Positions 15,277 to 64,000 of a stretch of 64,000 nucleotides of DNA are shown here, piece after piece. The DNA is taken from positions 1,674,001 through 1,738,000 of the forward strand of contig NZ_CP094529.1 in assembly GCF_022811665.1 (NCBI RefSeq), written 5' to 3'. The notes under the pieces are model-generated. The model made no database searches, was not told the DNA's origin, and was given only the letters and a program-made list of their open reading frames with translations. Both the position numbers and the translations under genes were made by a program. How positions within the stretch are numbered: the first letter of the stretch is position 1; each line of letters starts with the position of its first letter. This DNA is from Chryseobacterium oryzae. Its GTDB lineage: Bacteria > Bacteroidota > Bacteroidia > Flavobacteriales > Weeksellaceae.

Positions 15277-16532
15277 AACAACTATCTAAAACAAAAGTAA
15301 CCGTAAGACTTCGCAGAGCAGAAGACCGGAAAGAATGGTACGTTTATATAGAAAGTTATCCCGTACAAATTTCCGGAAAGAAAACACCACAGCGTATTCG
15401 TGAATATTTGAACAGAAGTGTTACAACGGTGGAATGGGACAAGAAAAGAACTGCTCGAACAGATTCAACAGGAACAAAAACGTACAAACCGAAACGTAAT
15501 GACAACGGGGTAATCATTTGCAAAAGTGAGAATGACCGTGAAGTAATGCTATATGCGGATGGAATCCGAAAACTTCGTCAACGAGAATATGATAATGTAG
15601 ATTTATACAGTGATTCTGAAAATTTGTTAATTGGGCAAAAAGAAAAAAGTCAGAAAAATTTTATTGAATACTTTGGTAAAGTAGCATCTAAAAGACACGG
15701 AAAAAATTCAAGCTCTATCCTAATCAATTGGGAACGTACGATAGAATTCTTAAAAAACTTTGCAGGAGATGAATTGATGTTTTCTCAAATAGACAATAAG
15801 ATGGCTGAAGGTTTTAAAAACTTTCTTCTATCCGCCCCTTGTGGAGGAAATAAAAAAGGGACTATTTCCAACAATACTGCAGCAACTTATTTTTCAATTT
15901 TTAAGGCGGCATTAAAGCAAGCATTTATTGATGGATATTTATTGGTTGACTTATCTTCAAAGATAAAAGGCATTCCGGAACAGGATTCAAGAAGAGAATA
16001 TTTGACTATTGAAGAACTTAATATGTTGGTTGCAACTTCTTGCGAAAGAGACGTCCTTAAAAGAGCAGCACTTTTCTCAGCACTTACTGGATTACGTCAT
16101 TCCGATATTCAAAAGCTTCGATGGAAAGAAATCAGCATAGAAAATAATGTGGTTAGACTAAACTTCACGCAGAAGAAAACTAAAGGTGTTGAATATACTC
16201 CCATTTCTCAGCAAGCTTTTCAACTTTGTGGAGAACCACGACAACCTGAACAATTTGTATTTGAAGATTTGCCAAATCCTTCCTGGATTTCAAGACCTCT
16301 TAAAAAATGGATTGAGAAAGCTGAGATAAAAAAGAATATTACTTTTCACTGCTTCCGTCATACTTTCGCCACCTTGCAGTTATCAAATGGTACAGATATT
16401 TACACAGTCAGTAAAATGCTTGGTCATACCAATGTGAAGACCACACAAGTCTATGCAAAAATAGTTGATGAAAAGAAAACTAAAGCTTCAGAAGCTATAC
16501 AGTTGGCATTTTTAAAGAATAAGTCAGAATGA
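15273..16532 (+). CDS. Site-specific tyrosine recombinase (integrase)
   Basis: 419 residues. An arm-binding domain (about 1-100) and a SAM-like core-binding domain (about 125-230) precede the catalytic domain. Catalytic residues are visible: Arg275 in LTGLRHSD, His359 and Arg362 in HCFRHTF, His385 in MLGHTNVKTTQ and nucleophile Tyr394. It has the Bacteroidota element type with N-terminal arm domain. It is not an integron IntI, since no IntI-specific insertion is seen. It should integrate the element at the dnaK 3' end. Confidence 0.95.
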   Translation: MKQLSKTKVTVRLRRAEDRKEWYVYIESYPVQISGKKTPQRIREYLNRSVTTVEWDKKRTARTDSTGTKTYKPKRNDNGVIICKSENDREVMLYADGIRKLRQREYDNVDLYSDSENLLIGQKEKSQKNFIEYFGKVASKRHGKNSSSILINWERTIEFLKNFAGDELMFSQIDNKMAEGFKNFLLSAPCGGNKKGTISNNTAATYFSIFKAALKQAFIDGYLLVDLSSKIKGIPEQDSRREYLTIEELNMLVATSCERDVLKRAALFSALTGLRHSDIQKLRWKEISIENNVVRLNFTQKKTKGVEYTPISQQAFQLCGEPRQPEQFVFEDLPNPSWISRPLKKWIEKAEIKKNITFHCFRHTFATLQLSNGTDIYTVSKMLGHTNVKTTQVYAKIVDEKKTKASEAIQLAFLKNKSE

Positions 16533-34491: not shown

Positions 34492-36215
34492 TGAAAATAA
34501 AAACCAAACTCAATATAGGTGTCGGTCTGCTTTTTATGATGATATTATTGTTATCAATCTTAAGTGGTTGGTATATCAATCAGCTTAAAAAAGATACCAA
34601 TAACATTCTGAAAGCAAACTATAATACGCTTCAATATTCCAGAAATATGCTGTTGGCTTTAGAGGAAATTAATTCTGACCCATTAGCATTCAGTGTTTTT
34701 GAAAAACATCTCAAACAACAACAGGAAAATGTGACCGAGCCTGGTGAAAAAGAATCAACAGATAATGTTGCTATTCATTTTAAAGCTTTGAAAAAAGATT
34801 CTGCCAATCTTGGACTTCAAACCTCTATAAGGAAAGACCTTGCTGAATTGATGCAAATCAATATGAGCGCCATTGAGCACAAAAGTACAGTTGCAGATTC
34901 GACGGCAAAAAATGCGATTATTGTGATTTCGACTGCAGGAATGGTGTGCTTTATTATTGCTTTTATTTTAATGGTTAATCTTCCTTCAAACATTGCAGAT
35001 CCGATTAAAAGCCTTACTGAAAGTATCAAACAGATTGCGAATCAAAACTATAAAGAACGGGTACATTTCGAAAGCCGAAGTGAGTTTGGAGATTTAGCCA
35101 ATTCATTCAATACAATGGCGGAAAAACTTCAGGAATATTCTGAAAGTAAGCTGGATAAAATCATCAGAGGAAAAAAACGTATCGAAACCTTGATTGATAA
35201 TATGCACGACCCAGTTATAGGTATTGATGAGGATAAAAAAGTTCTTTTCGTAAATGATGAAGCTTTGAAGATTACAGGACTTAAGAAAGAAAATTTTGTA
35301 GGAAAATTGATTCAGGATGTTGCTGTAAATAATGATTTGGTAAGAGATATCATCAAAGAAATGATTGTATCAGATAAAACAAATTCGGAAAAAGAAACGA
35401 TGAAAATCTATGCTGACGGAAAGGAAAGTTATTTTGAAAAAGAAATTGTTGACATCAATATTATTCCGACAGGAGAACAACAAAGTCGTTTTATTGGTCA
35501 GGTTATTATGCTTAGAAACATTACGCCTTTCAAAGAACTGGATTTGGCTAAAACTAACTTTTTGGGAACGGTTTCCCACGAATTCAAAACCCCGATTTCT
35601 TCTATACAAATGGGATTGCAGCTTTTAGAAAACGAACAGATTGGAAGTCTGAATAATGAGCAGAAAAACCTTGTTAACGGGATTAGAGAAGATTCAAGTC
35701 GCTTATTAAAAATAACAGGAGAATTGCTGAATATTACACAAGTTGAGAGTGGCTCTATCCAACTTAATATGAAAGAATCAAGCATTAATAAAATTATTGA
35801 ATACGCCGTCGAAGCCAATAAATCTTCTGCGGAACAAAAACATATTCATTTCAAAATCGATGTAGAAAAAGGTTTGTTAACAGTCTTGGCAGACAATGAA
35901 AAAACAGCTTGGGTTCTCAATAATTTGCTGTCAAATGCCATTCGTTATTCTTATGAAAATTCTAATATTAAGATTACTGTCAGAAAAGTTGAAGATAAAA
36001 TTCAATTCTCTGTTACAGATACCGGACAGGGAATTGCGCCTCAATATTTATCCAAAATCTTTGACCGCTATTTCCGAGTTCCCGGAAGTAAAAAAGAAGG
36101 AACAGGTTTGGGATTAAGCATCAGCAAAGAATTTATTGAAGCTCAAGGCGGAGAAATTACGGTAAAAAGTGAGTATGGAGCGGGAAGTACATTTACCTTT
36201 GATTTGAAAGGATGA
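34491..36215 (+). CDS. Sensor histidine kinase (HAMP-PAS-HisKA-HATPase)
   Basis: 574 residues. Transmembrane helix at about 8-28, short periplasmic loop, second helix at about 142-163, HAMP to about 215, PAS at about 230-340. The phosphoacceptor is His363 in GTVSHEFKTP. The ATPase lid includes NNLLSNAIRYS, DTGQGI and GTGLGLSIS. It overlaps the KdpD sensor gene by one base. Together with the NtrC-type regulator at 24448 it replaces KdpD/KdpE. Confidence 0.93.
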   Translation: MKIKTKLNIGVGLLFMMILLLSILSGWYINQLKKDTNNILKANYNTLQYSRNMLLALEEINSDPLAFSVFEKHLKQQQENVTEPGEKESTDNVAIHFKALKKDSANLGLQTSIRKDLAELMQINMSAIEHKSTVADSTAKNAIIVISTAGMVCFIIAFILMVNLPSNIADPIKSLTESIKQIANQNYKERVHFESRSEFGDLANSFNTMAEKLQEYSESKLDKIIRGKKRIETLIDNMHDPVIGIDEDKKVLFVNDEALKITGLKKENFVGKLIQDVAVNNDLVRDIIKEMIVSDKTNSEKETMKIYADGKESYFEKEIVDINIIPTGEQQSRFIGQVIMLRNITPFKELDLAKTNFLGTVSHEFKTPISSIQMGLQLLENEQIGSLNNEQKNLVNGIREDSSRLLKITGELLNITQVESGSIQLNMKESSINKIIEYAVEANKSSAEQKHIHFKIDVEKGLLTVLADNEKTAWVLNNLLSNAIRYSYENSNIKITVRKVEDKIQFSVTDTGQGIAPQYLSKIFDRYFRVPGSKKEGTGLGLSISKEFIEAQGGEITVKSEYGAGSTFTFDLKG

Positions 36216-54465: not shown

Positions 54466-54642
54466 AAAATATATTTTGTTATGGCTTGAATCTAACAGAT
54501 TTTGTGCCATTCAAAAAGTTTTTTTTAAACAAATCGAAAAAGAAAAAAAATGTTTTAAGTAAGAATAATTAAAGTGATTTAATTGTCGTACAAGTGAATA
54601 AATTTAGTGTAAATAATTTTTTAATGAATGATATCATCATTC

Positions 54643-55548
54643 CTATTCCGATGTCTGCAATTTACCTTTAAAACCAAAAATTTCTTTTGAATTAAAAACA
54701 ATAACGGCTAAAAATATGATGGAATATGCCAATATAGGCAATAATTCCAGCTTTTCATGATACACTGCTCCCGCAAGAATAAAAGCGATGATAGGATTGA
54801 TATTTAAAATCATCCCAACTTTAGACGACGCAATTCCCGATAATGCATACAGATTCAACAATAACGGAACAATAGTGTACATTACAGCAATGATCTCTAT
54901 ATAGAGATAGAACTTTAATTCAGTAGGAACATTACCTGAGTAAGCCGGGAAAAATGGCAATAAAATGAGAGATGCCAAAATCATGTGAATATTCAGAACG
55001 AGAAATTTATCAAATTTTTTATTTACAATCTGAATAATTAAATAACAAGCATAGGTAAGACCAATTAAACTACTGTAAAGCATATCAATAAGATTAGAGT
55101 AAGAAAGCAGAATACACCCCAATCCACTCAACCCAATAGCTAGCCATTGTAGTTTATTAAGCCTTTCCCTAAGAATAAAAAACGCCAAAATAGTAGTAAT
55201 AATAGGACATACCAAATACGCTACAGAAGTAGCTCTTACACTGATATGATTCATTACATAAATAAATGAAAACCAGTTTCCTGTGAGCAAAATACTACTC
55301 AAAACATTTAAACCAATCATTTTCTTCTTCTCGTTTACGGAAAGACTCTTGAAAAAGCTGATATTTTCTTTCAACTTTTTCTGTCGGAACAAAACCGAAA
55401 TAACTGACATAATTATCGTGCAGCTAAACACTCTATAAAAAAGAATATCCAATGAAGAATAATCATGCAAAGGTTTTAAAACGAGACTAAAAGTTCCCCA
55501 CGTAGCAAATGCAAAAATTGCGGCAATGTAATATCTTAATTGTTTCAA
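54643..55548 (-). CDS. EamA family transporter (drug/metabolite transporter)
   Basis: 301 residues with ten transmembrane helices in two EamA repeats. The first begins AAIFAFATWGTFSLVLKPL with LDILFYRVFSCTIIMS. The second begins GLTYACYLIIQIVNKKFDKF. It resembles the RarD/YdcZ-like group. The substrate is unknown. It is the last chromosomal gene before the cassette array and reads away from it. Confidence 0.88.
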   Translation of the reverse strand: MKQLRYYIAAIFAFATWGTFSLVLKPLHDYSSLDILFYRVFSCTIIMSVISVLFRQKKLKENISFFKSLSVNEKKKMIGLNVLSSILLTGNWFSFIYVMNHISVRATSVAYLVCPIITTILAFFILRERLNKLQWLAIGLSGLGCILLSYSNLIDMLYSSLIGLTYACYLIIQIVNKKFDKFLVLNIHMILASLILLPFFPAYSGNVPTELKFYLYIEIIAVMYTIVPLLLNLYALSGIASSKVGMILNINPIIAFILAGAVYHEKLELLPILAYSIIFLAVIVFNSKEIFGFKGKLQTSE

Positions 55549-55694
55549 ATGAAAATCCTGAATTTACGATTAGATTTATATAGAAAAATAATGCAAAGAT
55601 AATGATAATGATGTACGAGTCTAAATGTTTACCAATTAATTAAGATAATTAAGATAATTAAAATACAATATTGATGAAATAAAAAACATTAAAA

Positions 55695-55725
55695 TATACA
55701 AAATACGCATTTCGTATTTTGTATA
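55695..55725. repeat. Perfect hairpin upstream of the array
   Basis: TATACAAAATACG / CGTATTTTGTATA, 13 bp, with a 5-base loop. It lacks the usual T-run and may be an operator or a site tied to the array boundary. Confidence 0.6.
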
Positions 55726-55785
55726 ATAATTCATAATTATATTTTAAAGCATTGATTAATAGTATTTTATTAAAAATATTATTAT

Positions 55786-55817
55786 TTGTGTTTTTTAGTA
55801 AAACTTTCGTATATTTG
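55786..55817 (+). promoter_or_regulatory. Promoter reading into the cassette array (Pc-like candidate)
   Basis: TTG at 55786-55788 and TATATTTG at 55810-55817 with 21 bases between them match the flavobacterial promoter consensus. It ends only three bases before the first core site, in the position a cassette promoter would occupy. Confidence 0.5.
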
Positions 55818-55820
55818 AGA

Positions 55821-55830
55821 GTTAGCCGAC
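55821..55830 (+). other. Left boundary core site of the cassette array (GTTAGCCGAC)
   Basis: GTTAGCCGAC is the reverse complement of ATCGGCTAAC (57734-57743) at 9 of 10 bases. It opens cassette 1 in the same way as the GTT cores open the later cassettes. No attC-like stem lies upstream of it, so it may stand for an attI-type or boundary site. Confidence 0.6.
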
Positions 55831-55885
55831 ATCCTATAAAAATAGTATGTTAGATATAATATTATGATAGTAAATTAATAAATTT

Positions 55886-56200
55886 GGGGGCAAAGGTTGG
55901 AATGCTACGTTTAACTAAAATATACCACGCTAAGATATACGTTAGCTGGGAAGGATAATACCAGTTTCCAAATCTTTCGCAAGAATTATTGAGGAAACAG
56001 TTGCCAACAGCCTAATAACTGTTGTATACCTGGAGTTGAGTCTACGGAACAATTTGATTAACATATTTATGATGTTTAAGCATTTAAGTACAAAGATAAC
56101 AATTTCTATACCTGAAAAGAGTAGCGTCGCAATAGTCATTTTATGACGAAAGCTTCGTAGGAGCCTGTACATTTCAAACCTGCTACTATAAATTGCCCCC
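55886..56200 (+). ncRNA. Structured non-coding RNA of the reverse transcriptase cassette (candidate DRT/retron-type template RNA)
   Basis: A 315-base gene-free region right before the RT gene is closed by GGGGGCAA (55886-55893) and TTGCCCCC (56193-56200). A -7 element TAAATTTG (55879-55886) sits at its 5' edge, so transcription should start in or near the G-run. Inner stems include AACAGTT / AACTGTT (55996-56023), CTGG / CCAG (55946-55964), ACGAA / TTCGT (56146-56158) and AGTAGC / GCTACT (56120-56187). The closing stem and fixed distance to the RT support an RT-bound RNA. Confidence 0.7.
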
Positions 56201-56211
56201 TTTATATAATT

Positions 56212-57726
56212 ATGGAAACTGAAGAATGGTTTAAACCGAAAAAATATCCGCATATTGGTTCCCCAATTACATTATTTGATTATAATTGGGTGAAAAATTA
56301 TGTTATAAATCCAGAAAAAATAAGGGTTCATAGTTTCCTGCCTCTTATTCATAAAACAATTAAACAAAGAAAATTTAGAGCTGATAATAATAACAAGAAA
56401 AAAACTCCAACTAAAAAGCGATTTAGAAAAAAGGATGAAAAAAATCGTGAAATTTATTTTGCATCACATTTGGACGCTCAAATATTTTCATACTATAACA
56501 ATAAGCTTGTAGAAGCTTATGAAGACTTTATTAGTAAAGAATCATTTAATGACAGTGTTGTCGCATACAGAAAAATATCAGTTTCAAAGTCATCTAATAA
56601 TAACAAATGTAATATTGAATTCGCTAAGTCAACTTTTGAATTTGTTAAGAATAATCAAGATAAAAAATTATCAGTCATTGTTGCTGATGTAACATCTTTT
56701 TTTGATAACCTAAATCATAAAATTCTAAAAAAACAGTGGTGTAAAATATTAAAAGTAAAGACACTTCCACATGACCATTATAATGTTTATAAAACTCTAA
56801 CAAACATTAAATATGTAGAATCTAAACAACTATTTAAGTCTTATAATAAAACTATGATTGTAGAAAGAGGAGTTCCAAATTCTTCAACCAACAAAGAATT
56901 TAAACGAAAACCTATTAAACAATCATCATATTTTAAAGAAAAGAAAGCAGTTGCTTTTTGTACAAAATCTGAATTCATTGCAAATAATCTCAATCTAATT
57001 ATTTCAAAAAATAACACCAAGGGAATTCCGCAAGGAAGTCCTATAAGTGCAACATTAGCTAATGTATATATGTTAGATTTTGATAAAGTTATTTACGAAA
57101 AAATTGAACAATTAAATGGATACTATCAAAGATATAGTGATGATCTTATAATAATTTGCGAACAAAAATATGAAGACGAAATTATAAAATTATTAAGAAC
57201 AAATATTGCAGATAAATATATTGCAGGTTTAGAAATTCAAAGTAAAAAAACTAAAGTTTATAGATTTGAAAATATAAACGGACAATATAAAGGATTTCAA
57301 ATAGATGAAATTACAAAAGTTCCTAATTACAATTTAGCACTTGAATACCTTGGATTTACATTTGATGGAAAAAAAGTACTAATTAAAACTTCAGGTTACT
57401 CAAAATTTTATCGTTCTATGATAAAATCATTTAAGAAATCTGCATCTTTAGCAAAAAACAGTAAAAACCCTGATAAAAGCATATTCAAATCAAAATTATA
57501 TAAGAGATTTACTTATAAAGGATCGAAAAGAAAACTCATATATCATCCATCAAAAGACAATCCAACTGAATATTTAAAAACAAAAAAATTCAACTGGGGA
57601 AATTATCTTAGTTATGTTGAAAAGTCAAATACAGTAATGTTTGAAATCAATAATGGAAATCATATAATAAAACAAAGCAAAAAACTTTGGAGAAATTTCC
57701 ATAAATTAATGAATGAATATAAATAA
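56212..57726 (+). CDS. Defence-type reverse transcriptase (UG/DRT class candidate)
   Basis: 504 residues. The RT palm has motif A IVADVTSFFD (catalytic Asp159), motif B GIPQGSPISATLANVYM (271-287) and motif C YSDD (308-311). An N-terminal block with VHSFLPLIHKTI and REIYFASHLDAQIFSYYN precedes it. A basic extension of about 130 residues follows. No maturase, group II intron or DGR parts are seen. The N-terminal pattern recalls DRT2-like RTs, from memory; DRT9 is an alternative. It fills cassette 1 together with the upstream RNA. Confidence 0.8.
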   Translation: METEEWFKPKKYPHIGSPITLFDYNWVKNYVINPEKIRVHSFLPLIHKTIKQRKFRADNNNKKKTPTKKRFRKKDEKNREIYFASHLDAQIFSYYNNKLVEAYEDFISKESFNDSVVAYRKISVSKSSNNNKCNIEFAKSTFEFVKNNQDKKLSVIVADVTSFFDNLNHKILKKQWCKILKVKTLPHDHYNVYKTLTNIKYVESKQLFKSYNKTMIVERGVPNSSTNKEFKRKPIKQSSYFKEKKAVAFCTKSEFIANNLNLIISKNNTKGIPQGSPISATLANVYMLDFDKVIYEKIEQLNGYYQRYSDDLIIICEQKYEDEIIKLLRTNIADKYIAGLEIQSKKTKVYRFENINGQYKGFQIDEITKVPNYNLALEYLGFTFDGKKVLIKTSGYSKFYRSMIKSFKKSASLAKNSKNPDKSIFKSKLYKRFTYKGSKRKLIYHPSKDNPTEYLKTKKFNWGNYLSYVEKSNTVMFEINNGNHIIKQSKKLWRNFHKLMNEYK

Positions 57727-57733
57727 AAGGACG

Positions 57734-57932
57734 ATCGGCTAACATTGTATTGGCAAAATGCGGGTTAAATCTTGAATTGAAAAGCAGAACATTTTTTGCC
57801 GCAAATGCTTTTCAATTCTGCAATTTTTTGTAAGTTAGCATTATTGAAAAAGCATTCGCTACGTTTGGTCTGAAATTGAATATTCGTTCATTTTCTTCCC
57901 GCACTTCGCCAATACTTTTTCCGTTGCACGAC
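57734..57932 (+). repeat. attC-like site 1 (between cassettes 1 and 2)
   Basis: Left arm CTAAC-ATTG-TATTGGC-AAAA-TGCGGG pairs with right arm CCCGCA-CTTC-GCCAATA-CTTTTTCC-GTT. The outer cores ATCGGCTAAC and GTTGCACGAC do not pair with each other. The left core pairs with the start of cassette 1 (55821) and the right core with the end of cassette 2 (58360). About 130 bases of inner sequence form further hairpins. Confidence 0.8.
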
Positions 57933-57981
57933 ATTTTGTGAAAACGACGATGAATAAAATAAAATAAAATTTTTCAATAAA

Positions 57982-58344
57982 ATGGCAGTAAAAAATTTGA
58001 TTAAATCTATTTTCTTGATAATAATATTATCGATATTTAGTTGCAATTCTATAAAAAATAATTACAAACTTGAAAAAAATCTGCCAATAGTTGATTATAA
58101 TAAATCTTATGAATACTATGATAATTCTATTAGCCTGAATAATGCAATTCAGAAAAAAAATGAACAAACTCTGATTTTATACAATAAAAAGCAAATTAAT
58201 AAAGAAAAATTTAATAATCTTCTAAATAAAAAGAAAATAAAATCTATTGAAATAATAGAAGATAGTGCTAAAATATCGTCTTTCGGATTTTCATTTAAAA
58301 ATGTTAAAACTATAATGTTTACCAAAAGCGACGCTTCAAATTGA
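57982..58344 (+). CDS. Cassette 2: small lipoprotein of unknown function
   Basis: 120 residues. The N-terminus IKSIFLIIILSIFSCNSIKN is a lipoprotein signal with Cys21 at the lipobox. The mature part is Asn/Lys-rich and helical (ISLNNAIQKKNEQTLILYNK), ending FKNVKTIMFTKS. No family is recognised. It ends 15 bases before attC-like site 2. Anchoring in the envelope could mean an immunity or exclusion role, but that is only a guess. Confidence 0.65.
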   Translation: MAVKNLIKSIFLIIILSIFSCNSIKNNYKLEKNLPIVDYNKSYEYYDNSISLNNAIQKKNEQTLILYNKKQINKEKFNNLLNKKKIKSIEIIEDSAKISSFGFSFKNVKTIMFTKSDASN

Positions 58345-58359
58345 TTATAGAATAAAAAC

Positions 58360-58558
58360 GTCGTACAACATTGTATTGGCAAAAACGGGCTTGAATATCC
58401 AAATTGAAAATTTGAATATTCTTTGCCGCCAATGCTTTTCGTTTCAACTTTTTTTGTAATTTAGTTTCCACGAAAAAGCATTGGCTTCTACTACTCAAAA
58501 TTGAATTCTCCGAATTCCTTTTTGCCCGTCTTCGCCAATACTTTTTCCGTTGTGTGCC
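58360..58558 (+). repeat. attC-like site 2
   Basis: Left core GTCGTACAAC, right core GTTGTGTGCC. The inner arms are TGTATTGGC-AAAA-ACGGGC and GCCCGT-CTTC-GCCAATAC. The inside (AATTTAGTTTCCACGAAAAA) is nearly identical to site 5. The left core pairs with 57923-57932, and the right core pairs perfectly with 59569-59578. Confidence 0.8.
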
Positions 58559-58594
58559 ATTTTAAACACGACACACCCGAAAAACAAATTAAAA

Positions 58595-59563
58595 ATGAAA
58601 AACATTTTGACCATTTTAACTTTTATTCTTTTGACAAATTTTTCATTTGCACAAAGCGAAAAAGAAACCAATAAAACTGTTGCAACTAATTTTGAAAACA
58701 ATTATAATACTGACAATTTTAAAGAAATTTTCGAGAGCTTTTCACCTGAAATGCAATCAGCATTACCACTTGACAAAACAACAGACTTTCTTATTGGATT
58801 AAAACAACAAGCTGGTAAAATAATTAAAAGAGAATTTGTAAAATACGAACAGAGCTACGCCTCATATAAGACAAAATTTGAAAGAGCATTATTTGCAGTA
58901 AATATTTCAATAGATGATAATTCTAAAATAAACGGACTTTTTGTAAAACCTTTTAAAGAAGACAATCTTCCTAAACTTGAGAGAAACAAAACTAAATTGA
59001 CATTACCCTTTTATGAAGAATGGACTGTAGTTTGGGGTGGCGACACAAAAGAACTTAACTATCACGTTGAAAGTGAAGCTCAAAAAAACGCTTTTGATTT
59101 AGTAATTACAAACGATAAAGGAAATTCATTTAAAACCGACGGAAAAAAGAACGAAGATTATTATGCTTTTGGAAAAGAATTAATAGCACCTTGTAATGGA
59201 GAAATTGTTTTAGTGGTTGATGGTATAAAAGACAATGTTCCAGGAACTTTAAATCCCATTTATATCCCTGGAAATACCGTAATCATAAAGACTGAAAATA
59301 ACGAATATCTGTTTTTCGCCCATTTCAAACAACATTCAATAGTTGTAAAACAAGGACAGAAAGTTAAACAAGGACAACTACTTGGACTATGCGGAAATTC
59401 GGGCAACTCTTCGGAAGCTCATTTACATTTTCACATACAAAATACAGAAGATATGAACTTGGCAACAGGAGTAAAATGTTACTTCGACAAAATTCAAGTT
59501 GACGGACAAATAAAAACCGATTATTCACCTATTCAAAAAAACAAAATAAGTAGCCCTAAATGA
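58595..59563 (+). CDS. Cassette 3: secreted M23-like peptidase with DUF3887-like N-terminus
   Basis: 322 residues from MKNILTILTFILLTNFSFAQ, a signal peptide. An N-terminal helical domain (about 25-130) resembles DUF3887. The C-terminal domain is LytM/M23-like with LFFAHFKQHS and the H-x-H motif HLHFHIQN, plus GQLLGLCGNSGNSSEAH. The first zinc motif HxxxD is degenerate (YYAFGKELIAP), so activity is uncertain. It may act on peptidoglycan in the periplasm. Confidence 0.75.
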   Translation: MKNILTILTFILLTNFSFAQSEKETNKTVATNFENNYNTDNFKEIFESFSPEMQSALPLDKTTDFLIGLKQQAGKIIKREFVKYEQSYASYKTKFERALFAVNISIDDNSKINGLFVKPFKEDNLPKLERNKTKLTLPFYEEWTVVWGGDTKELNYHVESEAQKNAFDLVITNDKGNSFKTDGKKNEDYYAFGKELIAPCNGEIVLVVDGIKDNVPGTLNPIYIPGNTVIIKTENNEYLFFAHFKQHSIVVKQGQKVKQGQLLGLCGNSGNSSEAHLHFHIQNTEDMNLATGVKCYFDKIQVDGQIKTDYSPIQKNKISSPK

Positions 59564-59568
59564 AAAAC

Positions 59569-59706
59569 GGCACACAACAAGGGTTTTGCAATAGTGGGGC
59601 GAAACTGCAAAGTTCAACGGCAGTTCTTCGGTTCAACTTTTGTGCAAAATTGAAGATTTGTGCTTCGATTGCCCCGCCATCGCAAAGCCCCGAAACGTTA
59701 GCAGAA
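59569..59706 (+). repeat. attC-like site 3 (divergent type, 138 bp)
   Basis: Left core GGCACACAAC (perfect partner of 58549-58558). Arms AGGGTTTTGCAATAGTGGGGC and GCCCCGCCATCGCAAAGCCCC pair with several compensatory changes. The right core is GTTAGCAGAA, a perfect partner of 61445-61454. It shares the architecture but almost no sequence with sites 1, 2 and 5-7, and is shorter. Confidence 0.75.
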
Positions 59707-59727
59707 ATAGCAAACCAAACTAATCGC

Positions 59728-61440
59728 ATGAACAATAAAATTATTTTGAATGGATGTATTGATCAATTCAAGAATCAAAACGAATTAACAACAACAGATA
59801 GCGAGACATTCGAACTTTTTTCTTTAACTCAAATTACTAAAGATTTTGATTTAACATTTGAAACCATTCAAGATTCGGTTGTTGATGGCGGTCATGATGG
59901 CGGAATTGATTCTATAATTACAATTATAGATGACTTTGTGCCTGAATCAATTGAAGATTTAGAAGATATCGTATTTAATAGAAAAACAAATGTAAAGATT
60001 GTTATAACTCAATGTAAAAAAGAAAATTCATTTAAAGAATCTGCTTTAGATAAATTAATAACTTCTATACCTGAACTTTTTGATTTAGGAAAATCTACTG
60101 ATGCTCTATTGCAAAGATTTAATTCTAGCGTTGTTGAAAAAGGAATTATAGCAAGAGAAAGTTGGAAAAAATGCACTATAGCTGGAGGAAAGCTAGAAAT
60201 CATTTTTAACTATTGTGCAAATTCAGAAATAATAGAAATTAATACAACCTTTGAACAAAAAGTAACTCAATTGTTAGCTTTATGTCAATCAATTTTTGTT
60301 GGCTCATCAATTAGTTATGATAATTATAGTTGCCATGAGTTACTTAAATTATATCAAACTCAAAAAAATGAAAGACTACAAATAATTTATAAAGAAACAC
60401 CGCTTTCAACAAGTTATAATGATAATGGAATTGGTTACGTTGGAACTGTGAAACTTGCAAATTATAAATCTTTTCTGACTGACGAGGAAGGAAAGATTAG
60501 AGAAGATCTTTTTGAAAGTAATATTAGACATTTCCAGGGTGCAGTAGATGTTAATACAAAAATAAAAAATTCGATTGAAGACATTTCTACCGAAGATTTT
60601 TGGTGGTTGAATAATGGTATAACAATAATTGCTTCGAATCCTTCACTTGTTGGAACTACACTAAGCCTAGACAATGTACAAATAGTAAATGGATTACAAA
60701 CTTCATATTCTATTTTTTTACATCATAATAATGATCAAAATGACACAAGATCTGTACTTGTTAAAGTTATTATCAATGAGGACAAAAGAACAATTGATCA
60801 CATAATTGCATCAACTAATAGTCAAAATCCTGTGTCCCCTTCATTATTAAGAGCTACCGACGATATTCAACGAGAATTGGAATTATTTTACGGGAATGAA
60901 GGATATTTCTATGATCGAAGAAAAAACTATTACAAAAATCAAGGTAAGCCCGCTAGCAGAATTTTCAGTATTCAAACATCTGCTCAGATCATTGAATCAT
61001 TGTTATTTAACAATCCACATTCTGCACGTTCTAAACCTACATCATTAATAAAAGATGACACAACATATAATAGAATCTTTGACCAAAGTCGTAATTACAA
61101 GGTTTACTTAAATAGCTGTTTATTAAACAAAAAAGTTATTGAGTTTTGGACTAGCATTGAAGATAGAGATATGAAAAATAATTTGACAAACTTTAAATTG
61201 CATATCTCTAGAGTGATTACTTCCTTTATTTTTCAAAAAACAAATATCACTGCAAATGATATACAATCATTGGAGCTTGAATTGGTAAATAACGAGAATT
61301 TTGATTCTGCATCTGAGTTTTTATTAGCTAGTATAAACGGCTATCAAATTGAAAATCAAGATGCTAATTTAATTAACATGGCGAAAACCAAAAGCTTTAC
61401 GGATTATTTAGTTAATAGACTAACTACACAATTCCAATAG
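59728..61440 (+). CDS. Cassette 4: AIPR family abortive-infection protein with N-terminal PD-(D/E)XK-like domain
   Basis: 570 residues from MNNKIILNGCIDQFKNQNEL; the frame is open further up, but that part is the attC-like site. The N-terminal domain has GGHDGGID (54-61) and IVITQCKKEN (91-100), the Asp and Gln-x-Lys of Mrr-like nucleases. The AIPR core follows: SNIRHFQGAVDVN, LNNGITIIA (294-302) and VQIVNGLQTS (317-326). AIPR proteins act in phage resistance by abortive infection. The gene is complete and alone in its cassette. Confidence 0.85.
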   Translation: MNNKIILNGCIDQFKNQNELTTTDSETFELFSLTQITKDFDLTFETIQDSVVDGGHDGGIDSIITIIDDFVPESIEDLEDIVFNRKTNVKIVITQCKKENSFKESALDKLITSIPELFDLGKSTDALLQRFNSSVVEKGIIARESWKKCTIAGGKLEIIFNYCANSEIIEINTTFEQKVTQLLALCQSIFVGSSISYDNYSCHELLKLYQTQKNERLQIIYKETPLSTSYNDNGIGYVGTVKLANYKSFLTDEEGKIREDLFESNIRHFQGAVDVNTKIKNSIEDISTEDFWWLNNGITIIASNPSLVGTTLSLDNVQIVNGLQTSYSIFLHHNNDQNDTRSVLVKVIINEDKRTIDHIIASTNSQNPVSPSLLRATDDIQRELELFYGNEGYFYDRRKNYYKNQGKPASRIFSIQTSAQIIESLLFNNPHSARSKPTSLIKDDTTYNRIFDQSRNYKVYLNSCLLNKKVIEFWTSIEDRDMKNNLTNFKLHISRVITSFIFQKTNITANDIQSLELELVNNENFDSASEFLLASINGYQIENQDANLINMAKTKSFTDYLVNRLTTQFQ

Positions 61441-61444
61441 CTAC

Positions 61445-61646
61445 TTCTGCTAACATCGCATTGGCAAAATGGCGGGTTAAGTGCAAACTTCAACCTTTGT
61501 GCTTTTTATTCCGTCGAATGTGTTCCACATTCAGCTTTTTTTAATAATTTAGCTTCTGTGGAAACACATCGGCTAACGTCACTGCTAAATTGAACTTTTT
61601 GTCCAATTTATCCGCCACTTCGCCAATGCGTTTCCCATTAGCAGAA
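61445..61646 (+). repeat. attC-like site 4
   Basis: Left core TTCTGCTAAC, right core ATTAGCAGAA; here both ends also pair with each other because two neighbouring cassettes share the same core. Arms CGCATTGGC-AAAA-TGGCGG and CCGCCA-CTTC-GCCAATGCG. The first base of the right core is A instead of G, the only site without GTT. Confidence 0.78.
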
Positions 61647-62020
61647 ACGGTTCTAAATATCACGCTCAAAAGTATTTACTTAATTTTAAAGGCTTTGTTT
61701 TCTTCCTCTTTTCTTGAAAAATTAACGTTGCGGAATGCAAAATTTTAAAATGATATTTCTAGCAAAATGAAATGCAGAATTGAATTGCGAAATGCTGAAA
61801 AAATGAATTTTGAAAAAGTATGAAATGGAATTTCAAAATATTTCTGGAATTCAAAATTGGAAAAATATAAATTTCTGAATTCAACCAAATTAAGTGAATG
61901 AAATTTTCATTGAAAAACCACGAAATTGAATTCTGAAATCTATAAAAAATCGAATTCCTAAAAGAATGAAATTGAAATAAAATAATCGCAAAAAATTACC
62001 TACTGAAAGTCAATTACCGC
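61647..62020 (+). other. Cassette 5: gene-less cassette
   Basis: About 375 bases between sites 4 and 5 with no frame of useful length on either strand. The sequence is low in complexity, with repeated variants of GAAATTGAATTCTGAAA and AAATGAATTTTGAAA. It may carry a promoter, an RNA, or a dead gene. Its ends still pair (ATTAGCAGAA with TTCTGCTAAC), so it is a valid cassette by structure. Confidence 0.6.
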
Positions 62021-62220
62021 TTCTGCTAACATCGCATTGGCAAAAACGGGCTTGAATATCCAAATTGAAAATTTGAATATTCTTCGCCGCCAATTGCTTT
62101 TCGTTCCAACTTTTTTTGTAATTTAGTTTCCACGAAAAAGCATTGGCTTCTACTCCGCAAAATTGAATTCTCCGAATTCCTTTTTGCCCGTCTTCGCCAA
62201 TACTTTTTCCGTTGTACGCA
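62021..62220 (+). repeat. attC-like site 5 (hybrid left end)
   Basis: The left 18 bases (TTCTGCTAACATCGCATTGG) are those of site 4, while the remaining about 180 bases are nearly identical to site 2. The arms still pair (ATTGGC / GCCAAT), but the outermost arm bases no longer match. The right core GTTGTACGCA pairs perfectly with 62882-62891. Confidence 0.75.
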
Positions 62221-62250
62221 ATTTTACACCAACCGTTTACAAATTCCAAA

Positions 62251-62877
62251 GTGAAAAAACAACTTCTATTTTTAGTTTTATTATTTTCCATTACAAGTTG
62301 TTTGAATAATAAATTTATCAAACCTAAAGAAAGTACAAATGAATATAATGAAACTTTATATTTTGCAACATATGATGAAAATAGGTATCCAAAAGACACA
62401 ATCAGAAATGGACCAAATGATTCACTTTCTCTATTTGTAAATAAATGGTATTCTAAGCATCTAAATTCGTTAAAAGAAACACCTATTTATAACAGAAAAA
62501 AAGAAAACATAAATATTATAAGATACACAAATTTAGGAACTTGGTCACATCCATTTATGTATAGAATTGAACAAAAAAATGGAAAGATAATTGAAATTTA
62601 CAAACAAACAAATGGTTTAGGTGGTTATCAAACTGGAAAAATCACAAAAAATTCTGAAAAACAAATTAGTAATAAGAAATGGAATGAAATTATTTCAAAA
62701 ACTAATGAAATAGATTTTTGGAATATAAATACTCACGATCCAAATTTTATACTTGACGGCGAAGAATGGATTTTGGAAATCTTGATTGATGGAAAATATC
62801 ATTTAGTTACGCGAAATAGTCCAGAAAATTATGGTGGAAAAAAATTTGCTGAACTATGTAAAATGATAAGTAAATAA
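62251..62877 (+). CDS. Cassette 6: lipoprotein of unknown function (GTG start)
   Basis: 208 residues when started at the GTG of VKKQLLFLVLLFSITSC. An ATG at 62212 lies inside the attC-like site and is rejected. Cys17 is at the lipobox. The mature protein is Asn/Lys/Glu-rich with mixed alpha/beta pattern (LGTWSHPFMYRIEQKNGKII, GEEWILEILIDGKYHLVTRN). No family is recognised. It ends four bases before site 6. Confidence 0.65.
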   Translation: MKKQLLFLVLLFSITSCLNNKFIKPKESTNEYNETLYFATYDENRYPKDTIRNGPNDSLSLFVNKWYSKHLNSLKETPIYNRKKENINIIRYTNLGTWSHPFMYRIEQKNGKIIEIYKQTNGLGGYQTGKITKNSEKQISNKKWNEIISKTNEIDFWNINTHDPNFILDGEEWILEILIDGKYHLVTRNSPENYGGKKFAELCKMISK

Positions 62878-62881
62878 AAAC

Positions 62882-63080
62882 TGCGTACAACATTGTATTG
62901 GCAAAATGCGGGGTTTAAGTCTGAATTGAAAATCCACAGCTTTTTTGCCGCCGTTGCTTTTCAATTCCACATTTTTTTGTAATTTAGTTCCATTGAAAAA
63001 GCATCGGCTTCATTTGGTCTTTCTTGAACTAAAGTTCTTCGAATTCCCGCACTTCGCCAATACTTTTTCCGTTATCTGTA
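62882..63080 (+). repeat. attC-like site 6
   Basis: Left core TGCGTACAAC, right core GTTATCTGTA. Arms TGTATTGGC-AAAA-TGCGGG and CCCGCA-CTTC-GCCAATAC, with inner hairpin GAATTGAAAA / TTTTCAATTC. It is nearly identical to site 7. Confidence 0.8.
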
Positions 63081-63090
63081 ATAACATCAA

Positions 63091-63738
63091 ATGACTGTCC
63101 CTCAAATAATTGAAGTTATCCAAAGTGAACTAAAAAATAAAGCTTGGGGAATAACTGAACAAATTTTAGAAATTCACAATCCTATTTTTGTCGACAATAA
63201 AATTCAAATTGAAAATATTGTTAAAAATGAAAATGAAATAAGTGTATTCATTCCTATCGAAAACGAAAAATTTTATTTGACTTTTTATATTAATTCTGAG
63301 AAAATGGAAATTATTGGAATTTCAACGGAACCAAATATTTCAATTTATTTTAAAGCAACTTCTGAAGAATTAAGTGAAACCGAATTACAAAATTTCACAA
63401 AATTAGAAATCACAAAAAGTTGGAATAAAGGAGAATTAAGAAAACTTGGAAATACTTCACACAGTTTTAGCTGCATAATTATTGAACCGAATAAAAAACC
63501 GAATAATTTTGAATCCAAAATCGCTGAATTAATTGAAGAATTAGAAAAAGACAAATCTGGGATTCAAAAATTATCGGAAAATGCAAATGGTTATATTCAA
63601 GTTATAATGGAATTTCATAATGGAAATGGAATGATTGGAGGACCAAATTTATCGGAAGAAATAATAAAATCTTTAAATGGATTGAAATTGTCATTAGATT
63701 TTGATTTTTATGTCTCTGGAAATCCATATAAATCTTAA
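63091..63738 (+). CDS. Cassette 7: DUF4279-containing protein
   Basis: 215 residues, no signal peptide. An N-terminal helix-strand domain (about 1-110) precedes a C-terminal part of DUF4279 type (LGNTSHSFSCIIIEPNKK, ISELIEEL-like helix, GYIQVIMEFHNGNGMIGGPN). DUF4279 proteins are often found among immunity or defence genes. The function is unknown. It starts 11 bases after site 6 and ends 10 bases before site 7. Confidence 0.7.
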   Translation: MTVPQIIEVIQSELKNKAWGITEQILEIHNPIFVDNKIQIENIVKNENEISVFIPIENEKFYLTFYINSEKMEIIGISTEPNISIYFKATSEELSETELQNFTKLEITKSWNKGELRKLGNTSHSFSCIIIEPNKKPNNFESKIAELIEELEKDKSGIQKLSENANGYIQVIMEFHNGNGMIGGPNLSEEIIKSLNGLKLSLDFDFYVSGNPYKS

Positions 63739-63747
63739 AATTGCTAC

Positions 63748-63945
63748 TACAGATAACACGGTATTGGCAAAATGCGGGGTTTAAGTCTGAATTGAAAATC
63801 CATAGCTTTTTTATCGCCGCTGCTTTTCAATTCCACATTTTTTGTAATTTAGTTCCATTGAAAAAGCATCAGCTTCGTTTGGTCTTTCTTGAACTAAAGT
63901 TCTTCGAATTCCCGCACTTCGCCAATACTTTTTCCGTTACCTGCA
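63748..63945 (+). repeat. attC-like site 7
   Basis: Left core TACAGATAAC (perfect partner of 63071-63080), right core GTTACCTGCA whose partner lies past the window. Arms as in site 6. The array therefore continues beyond 64000. Confidence 0.8.
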
Positions 63946-63972
63946 ATTTTCCAAAAACACTCTACAAAAACA

Positions 63973-64000
63973 ATGAATAAAAGAATTTTTGCTTTTTTAA
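63973..64000 (+). CDS. Cassette 8: start of a further gene (cut by the window end)
   Basis: ATG at 63973 opens a frame reading MNKRIFAFL, which looks like the start of a signal peptide. It begins 28 bases after site 7, the same spacing as in other cassettes. Confidence 0.45.

Follow-up and report, generated by a model that had tools for sequence, protein, structure and literature searches.

The closest described systems to the locus reported here are the sedentary chromosomal integrons of the Vibrio type and the clusters of attC sites lacking integron-integrases (CALINs) recognised by IntegronFinder. In the available part of PMC7790495, the I2 helix region is deemed necessary for cassette capture by integron integrases (IntI), and the available text of an Elizabethkingia genome study that used IntegronFinder reports no integrons (PMC5458099). 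The window analysed here is the 64,000-nt stretch of the Chryseobacterium oryzae genome at C1:1674001-1738000 of the host contig C1 (NZ_CP094529.1), and it ends inside a cassette array. Together with a second array, this window array very probably belongs to a Bacteroidota integron whose tyrosine recombinase is not an IntI. In tests made on the sequence, the system behaves like an integron, and its integrase is not IntI by three tested features. The original prediction had called the array CALIN-like; a cassette array without an adjoining integrase was indeed found, and it is not a bare attC cluster, since an attI site opens it.

Cassette end pairing and the attC sites

The window array is ~36 kb long and holds ~40 cassettes, numbered along its whole length, with 39 well-formed attC-like sites, 38 of them found by motif search and one added by covariance model R1 (built from 37 rows). 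Its right end lies at about window coordinate 91.6 kb; degenerate repeats past this point, seen by eye to ~94 kb and followed by a gene that looks ppc-like by eye, were excluded from the pairing counts, as were the GTT and AAC anchors. The length from AAC to GTT was 183-188 bp in 38 sites and 124 bp in the remaining one. All seven repeats of 138-202 bp originally predicted in the window were recovered, and their AAC to GTT spans of 124-188 bp plus the 7-base boxes give these lengths.

The 7 bases after GTT were compared with the reverse complement of those before AAC at the other end of the same cassette. Agreement was found at 270/273 positions and was perfect in 36/39 cassettes, whereas 10,000 shuffled cassette-end pairings averaged 151.3 (sd 8.9) and never exceeded 185. 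Pairing both ends of one integrated attC as a control gave 152/273 positions and 2/39 perfect matches, as expected from the earlier claim that a repeat's own two ends mostly do not match. The claim that the 10-base ends of the seven window cassettes agree at 67 of 70 positions was reproduced exactly, as was the count of seven right cores out of eight starting with GTT (the core at 61637 reads ATT). End pairing across cassettes is what would be left by excision of circles and their reinsertion.

The cassettes stand in tandem in the same orientation and are mostly single-gene, with an ATG-started open reading frame (ORF) of at least 60 aa on the array strand in 36/40 intervals. In intervals 5, 20, 29 and 38, all ATG-started ORFs on this strand are 49 aa or shorter. 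The ORF-poor cassettes (window 61637-62031; window coordinates 74801-75170, 82072-82585 and 89406-89893) are perhaps regulatory RNA or spacer; the last two are 88% alike, with relatives also present in the second array described below. Cassette 8 has a duplicate within the array, cassette 22, with 99% identity over 742 bp.

Aligned on the bottom strand (37 rows), the attC sites support a structure of three helices in which 98.1% of the cells are paired. Covariation was seen at 16 pairs, with 127 cells changed on both sides, and 0/500 shuffles equalled any of five measures, in a test biased in favour of the structure because the structure was derived from the same 37-row alignment. When the partners were slid, paired cells fell to 41-53%. 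DNA folding with the cassette's own ends (the circle form) favoured the bottom strand over the top strand in 38/38 cases (mean -40.8 vs -35.4 kcal/mol), and this preference and the covariation are consistent with recombination of a folded bottom strand. Three folds were compared: those of cassettes 2 and 6 have an 11-bp R-box stem, a loop of 6 vs 2 bases and an 18-bp stem, and that of cassette 3 (short class) is unlike them.

The R box of ~11 bases differs in sequence from cassette to cassette and reads mostly GTT-R-N-N-N-G-N-A/C-A. Because of this code, the two canonical attC boxes were found together in 0/38 sites; RYYYAAC fitted 1/38 and GTTRRRY also 1/38, which bears out the original remark that cores depart from GTTRRRY. 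When 54500-64000 was searched against Rfam, only two lactis-plasmid matches on attC palindromes appeared, both below the gathering score and taken as chance.

attI, the second array and its integrase

With up to 2 mismatches allowed, a 17-base attI core, TCGTATATTTGAGAGTT, is present at exactly two genomic positions, one per array. The second lies ~603 kb from the window array on the same contig, beside an integrase gene (C1:1125709-1126788; L025 17709-18791). This gene encodes a 360-aa tyrosine recombinase and adjoins array 2, from which it is divergent, with attI between them; CTTTCGTATATTTGAGAGTT is the sequence from the gene to the first cassette. The genome-wide site pattern matched 31 times on one strand and 11 times on the opposite strand, and reversed-pattern controls gave 0 matches. 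Array 2 (C1:1092.6-1124.8 kb) accounts for 10 of the 11 opposite-strand sites, the eleventh being a lone site, and its end pairing was perfect in 10/13 intervals.

The integrase is thus present in cis at array 2, as it is in relatives, and none lies beside the window array. The palindrome ATACAAAATACGCATTTCGTATTTTGTAT, which stands beside the integrase start codon at array 2, persists at the window array without the gene, and this retention and the shared attI core mark the window array as an integrase-less sister array. No IntI gene had been seen to the left of the array in the original prediction, and the only match to the sister-locus integrase in the window was a different recombinase, a 419-aa tyrosine recombinase of the Arm-DNA-bind_5/SAM_5 type (match at 16089-16463), probably from an integrated element. 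The genome search proposed there, for an IntI or other tyrosine recombinase, yielded no canonical IntI over the TIGR02249 cut-off in the host genome, and yielded the non-IntI 360-aa enzyme beside the second array.

The attI consensus is CTTNCGTATATTTGAGWGTT. Among 63 distinct attI, TATATTTG was present in 50, with TTG 18-19 bases upstream in 31 of these 50 (the spacing in the window attI is 21); the core columns are conserved partly through row selection, which does not affect the upstream TTG in this way. The Bacteroidota promoter consensus is TTG...TAnnTTTG, and attI appears to contain a putative promoter of this type. CGTATT-like half-sites were found between gene and core in 44/70, compared to 2.8 expected from single-base shuffles.

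Other elements were observed at and beyond array 2. An insertion of ~19.5 kb in array 2 (C1 ~1103.6-1123.1 kb, L024/L025) contains a tyrosine recombinase of the Arm-DNA-bind_5/SAM_5 type, and its ORFs look phage or integrative and conjugative element, SMC-like and helicase-like by eye. The lone attC-like site (C1:1376374-1376557, L026 6374-6557, 182 bits) is far from both arrays and is possibly an insertion outside attI. Single attC-like sites at G000:C2:25162-25347 (117.6 bits) and 35027-35208 (133.1 bits) are each followed, after ~200-400 bp, by a tyrosine recombinase of ~290 aa, one copy of which (L015) is followed by an ORF that by eye is IS91-type transposase-like; these C2 sites perhaps reflect a transposon targeting or carrying attC.

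In the NCBIfam ranking, the integrase scored 204.6 with the XerA-type model (cut-off 220), followed by TIGR02249 with 186.2 (cut-off 265). The IntI-specific region (I2 helix) measured 25 residues in 55/55 integrases of this system, 26 in 5 paralogues and 67 in 30/30 canonical IntI, which were the best-scoring ones and came from other parts of the phylum (L292-L321). In a phmmer alignment, ~38 IntI4 residues were unmatched in the integrase. The available part of a tyrosine-recombinase survey describes the insertion as not fully conserved within the integron-like subgroup (PMC8138268), so an I2-less enzyme may already sit there unnoticed. Canonical IntI exceeded the cut-off in 105/395 phylum genomes; at 1e-60, 107 phylum genomes had IntI, among the matches listed one in the host's class and none in its order.

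In a tree of 71 rows, IntI formed one clade (100/99) and the integrases grouped with the paralogues (98/93), apart from IntI. The distant partial relative L129 fell among the paralogues in this tree, and the IS91-linked recombinase joined IntI, on a long branch that was flagged. Forcing integrases and IntI into one clade gave a borderline rejection (p-AU 0.043) on a quick tree from which two long rows, nine IntI rows and every second integrase had been removed. Since the p value is only 0.043, an independent origin of the integrase is favoured, not proven.

Residues R219, K244, H308, R311, H334 and Y343, which we take to be the catalytic residues of the tyrosine recombinase family, are invariant across 36 aligned integrases. 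The fold predicted for a 98% identical homologue (P0001) is that of a Xer/IntI-type recombinase, with 5HXY, 2A3V and 4A8E as best matches. The predicted N-terminal domain has ~85 residues in the order strand-strand-helix-strand-strand-helix, and Foldseek and VIA-align gave no significant PDB match to it. A possible resemblance of this domain to HARP found no support with Foldseek and no clear support with VIA-align. The full-length model had a pLDDT of 83.6 and a pTM of 0.56, and because of the latter the domain placement was left out of the argument.

Distribution, cassette exchange and cargo

At 1e-60, the integrase matched 87/296 genomes of the host's family, representing 22/33 genera, and in 68 of them the best match reached at least ~46% identity. 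With up to 8 model matches scored per genome under stricter filters, five or more attC matches were found in 45/68 genomes with the integrase versus 14/228 without (odds ratio 30), and one or more in 61/68 with it. Sixty integrase loci were fetched, 55 at 45% identity or above and five paralogues at 37-40%. In 46/55 loci (a descriptive count) and in 0/5 paralogues, an attI-like motif was present, at a distance of 108-253 bp from where the integrase match starts; among the nine loci without attI, L070 has 5 bases upstream only and L091 carries the motif with an altered core. Of 230 covariance rows, 210 were used, after 19 weaker opposite-strand readings and a partial match in L073 had been dropped by eye. 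Array-side attC matches at the 55 loci were on the expected strand in 202/202 cases, and one match lay on the other side. In 199 family cassettes, the ends matched at 5.77 of 7 positions, compared to 3.27 when shuffled (maximum 3.58 in 2000 shuffles); 106 were perfect and 151 scored 6 or 7, and the same-attC control gave 1 perfect.

The paralogues L115-L119 were considered as integron integrases and rejected, with attI in 0/5 and 0/7 attC matches on the expected array-side strand; two of these seven lay on the array side, in the wrong orientation. They belong, with G000:C2:38324-39352, to a recombinase family that has a similar N-terminal part; its five loci are without attI.

In wider searches, at least 585 contig stretches matched, and among 7999 proteins scored, 5153 were homologues at the 1e-60 level or better, paralogues included. 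When 80 named loci were scored with the attI consensus of the first set, 24 reached at least 15/20 and the best scores elsewhere were at most 14; at least 6 of the 24 had already been part of the first set. These 24 include loci from Flavobacterium erciyesense, Chryseobacterium lacus, Kaistella palustris, Kaistella yonginensis, Parapedobacter soli, Parapedobacter defluvii and a Chitinophagales metagenome-assembled genome. A second geometry occurs in other lineages, where the array lies downstream of the integrase and is co-directional (12 named loci, 21 minus-strand matches). The attC R-box code, sought upstream with up to one mismatch in nine, was found at 20/21 of these sites, 19 of them without mismatch. 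The first cassette opens 98-253 bp past the end of the integrase match in seven loci, and in L176, L186 and L207 TCGTATATTT or GCGTATATTT stands directly before its GTT. The integrase had no PLSDB plasmid match at 1e-70; in viral contigs, the best among 80 matches listed was 56% over a partial stretch, and the others were 33-49%.

Homology between arrays of different genera ends at GTT cores. The original prediction was staked on precise gain or loss of cassettes at the cores in related genomes, and this was found, with the breakpoints at GTT. Loci L084, L088 and L089 have the integrase, attI and first cassettes in common. L083, L087 and L090 share the integrase and attI with one another and with these three (95.7-100%), and diverge at the attI GTT, or up to ~5 bases later in pairs with L087 or L083. 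A ~1.33-kb cassette, 100% identical, is first after attI in L110 and second in L084, L088 and L089; L071 also holds it, behind an extra ~0.8 kb between attI and the shared series. A ~1.04-kb cassette lying between two cores in L084 is missing from L088 and is present, 100% identical, elsewhere in the L090 array. Of 38 window-array cassettes compared with the fetched relatives, only 17 and 8 were matched over most of the gene part. Cassette 17 occurs twice in L102, adjoining attI from cassette base 0 (87.1%) and inside the array, and the match of cassette 8 in L112 was 72%.

A PADLOC scan of 36 cassette proteins identified the defence genes DRT2 and AbiU among the window-array cassettes. Other cassette proteins include two Mrr-type nucleases, a ubiE-type methyltransferase, a GNAT acetyltransferase, a beta-lactamase-family protein (PF13354, cassette 35, L010 2567-3460) and a HigB-like toxin with a helix-turn-helix (HTH) partner. 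A 3'-5' exonuclease-like protein scores just below the Pfam cut-off, a separate ParE-like match is below cut-off, and for many cassette proteins no family was assigned. With defence genes (DRT2, AbiU and the Mrr-type nucleases) or a HigB-type toxin/HTH pair in some cassettes, the array resembles, in part, a reservoir of defence modules. DRT2 systems have a structured RNA upstream. A leader of ~380 bp precedes the DRT2 gene inside cassette 1 (window 55834-56211), and an upstream RNA lying there would move together with the cassette. The features of the window part are collected in Table 1.

Table 1. Features of the array within the window (window positions; bit scores are for attC-like sites).
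Feature	Position	Strand	Evidence or remark
Palindromic AT-rich element ATACAAAATACGCATTTCGTATTTTGTAT	55696..55724	.	Left-flank alignment of both arrays; putative function
Putative cassette promoter in attI: TTTG 55785-55788, 21 bp, TATATTTG 55810-55817	55785..55817	+	
attI core AAAACTTTCGTATATTTGAGAGTT, with its GTT crossover core at 55821	55800..55823	+	Single match within window
Cassette 1 as far as its attC, with ~390 bp leader and DRT2-type reverse transcriptase	55821..57744	+	
DRT2 anti-phage reverse transcriptase, 504 aa	56212..57726	+	PADLOC Drt2 E 7e-139; Pfam RVT_1
attC-like site 1	57741..57925	.	183.1 bits, bottom strand
Cassette 2 gene, 120-aa small protein	57982..58344	+	No Pfam family at 0.01
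attC-like site 2	58367..58551	.	194.6 bits
Cassette 3 gene, DUF3887 and M23 peptidase, 322 aa	58595..59563	+	Pfam
attC-like site 3, short class (124 bp)	59576..59699	.	46.4 bits
Cassette 4 gene, AbiU/AIPR abortive-infection protein, 570 aa	59728..61440	+	PADLOC AbiU E 4.8e-168; Pfam AIPR
attC-like site 4, with ATT (not GTT) as right core at 61637	61452..61639	.	153.5 bits
Cassette 5, no ORF on array strand; longest from ATG 18 aa	61637..62031	+	
attC-like site 5	62028..62213	.	188.1 bits
Cassette 6 gene, 208 aa	62251..62877	+	Weak DUF6438 match, below cut-off
attC-like site 6	62889..63073	.	217.7 bits
Cassette 7 gene, DUF4279, 215 aa	63091..63738	+	Pfam
attC-like site 7	63755..63938	.	207.2 bits; cassette 8 starts at 63936 and runs past window end
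Cassette 8	63936 to window coordinate 64680		Duplicate is cassette 22 at 76193-76937

Proposed mechanism, rival explanations and known systems

In the mechanism we propose, a cassette would be a circle with one attC, whose bottom strand folds when single-stranded. Folding would pair the two R boxes, which make up the outermost ~11 bases at either end of the cassette, and would pair the L boxes with each other, so that the folded attC joins two recombinase-binding arms around a short asymmetric loop. The integrase would cleave beside GTT and link the folded strand to double-stranded attI, with the junction resolved by replication; excision would be attC x attC. As the -7 element of the putative attI promoter touches the core, the newest cassette would be transcribed first. 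The window locus has attI and no integrase gene, and recombination there would depend on the integrase ~603 kb away acting in trans. Taken in full, this describes a second, independently evolved kind of integron in Bacteroidia, in which folded single-stranded cassettes would be captured by an I2-less recombinase with its own N-terminal domain and attI would also act as the cassette promoter, with the array upstream and divergent, or downstream and co-directional as in other families. We regard this full model as evenly poised between being right and being wrong.

Several observations weigh against a non-IntI integron. Recombination by this system is inferred from sequence alone, and the IntI-specific region, deemed necessary for attC recombination, is absent from the integrase. 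One or more attC matches were found in 85/228 family genomes without the integrase (threshold ~46% identity), so that sites without an integrase are common. The attI pattern was written after the upstream sequences had been inspected, which is why the count of 46/55 loci is descriptive. Three of the 13 intervals of array 2 were not fully paired, one spanning the 19.5-kb island and two at the far end. Cassette-end scores were low at several loci, such as L068 (2-5 of 7), probably as a result of undetected intervening sites. In the stretches fetched for L078, L081 and L095, both attI and attC are missing; L074 likewise lacks attI, and its single weak attC match is on the other side of the gene. 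The genomes of L078, L081, L095 and L074 (G052, G077, G032 and G066) carry attC elsewhere, and the integrases of L074, L078 and L081 are possibly further trans-acting arrangements.

Ordinary double-strand recombination at short cores, with no folded strand and with the inverted repeats serving another purpose, would suit an enzyme lacking the additional region to which IntI owes its single-strand recombination. We consider this unlikely, since R' and R'' are 124-188 bp apart in the duplex and meet only by folding, yet they match pairwise, and since the inner stems covary and the bottom strand is favoured 38/38. The absence of a recombinase adjoining the window array also fits a canonical integron that lost its IntI, an ordinary CALIN, with a merely coincidental recombinase at the sister array; CALINs are common according to the available part of PMC9024848. 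However, the genome has no IntI over cut-off, strong IntI occur, among the matches listed, in one genome of the host's class and none of its order, RYYYAAC and GTTRRRY match together in 0/38 sites, and integrase, attI and arrays co-occur across many genera, which makes a lost IntI very unlikely here.

Cassettes could also be moved by the host XerC/XerD in place of the linked recombinase, as for Xer-exploiting phages. The enzymes are related, XerD exceeds its NCBIfam cut-off and a XerC-like protein tops its model below cut-off, but this explanation would leave the presence of attI beside the 360-aa gene in 46/55 loci and the co-occurrence unaccounted for, and we judge it highly improbable. Isolated sites such as C1:1376374-1376557 would fit a REP-like family of dispersed palindromic repeats, or terminators between genes. 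Such a family fails on the end pairing across cassettes and the single orientation from attI and is contradicted by the exact cassette exchange with GTT breakpoints, so we give it next to no credence. A Bacteroidota integron with a non-IntI tyrosine recombinase remains the reading that we prefer.

If confirmed, this system would represent another kind of gene-capture machine in Bacteroidota. Integron anatomy and exact exchange without I2 would mean either another route of folded-strand recombination or cassette capture without folded strands. Such a system would also expose a gene-exchange network in Bacteroidota possibly overlooked by tools based on IntI and GTTRRRY. No earlier description of this integron-like system was found in searches of open-access literature, preprints excluded.

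Of known enzymes, the archaeal XerA/XerC-like recombinases 5HXY and 4A8E rank among the solved proteins closest, in sequence and structure, to the catalytic part of the integrase, which differs from them in its extra ~85-residue N-terminal domain. To our knowledge, no cassette arrays are known for these recombinases. The integrase shares the tyrosine recombinase fold with the IntI of other Bacteroidota classes (L292-L321) and with IntI4 (2A3V, among the best structural matches), but it has 25 residues in place of their 67 and stands outside the IntI clade (support 100/99).

The window array resembles a CALIN in having many attC sites and no adjoining integrase. Unlike a CALIN, it has 39 well-formed sites, versus an average of almost 6 per CALIN in the available part of PMC9024848, and it has attI and a candidate integrase elsewhere on the same contig. 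In comparison with the Vibrio-type integron, the integrase lacks the IntI-specific region and belongs to another clade, the R box is a variable ~11 bases, and a second array here has attI with no integrase. As in the Vibrio-type sedentary chromosomal integron or superintegron, attI lies at one end, the sister-locus integrase is in cis and divergent, tens of mostly single-gene cassettes are present with attC R boxes coming from the two ends of one cassette, the bottom strand folds better, and the cut would fall beside GTT.

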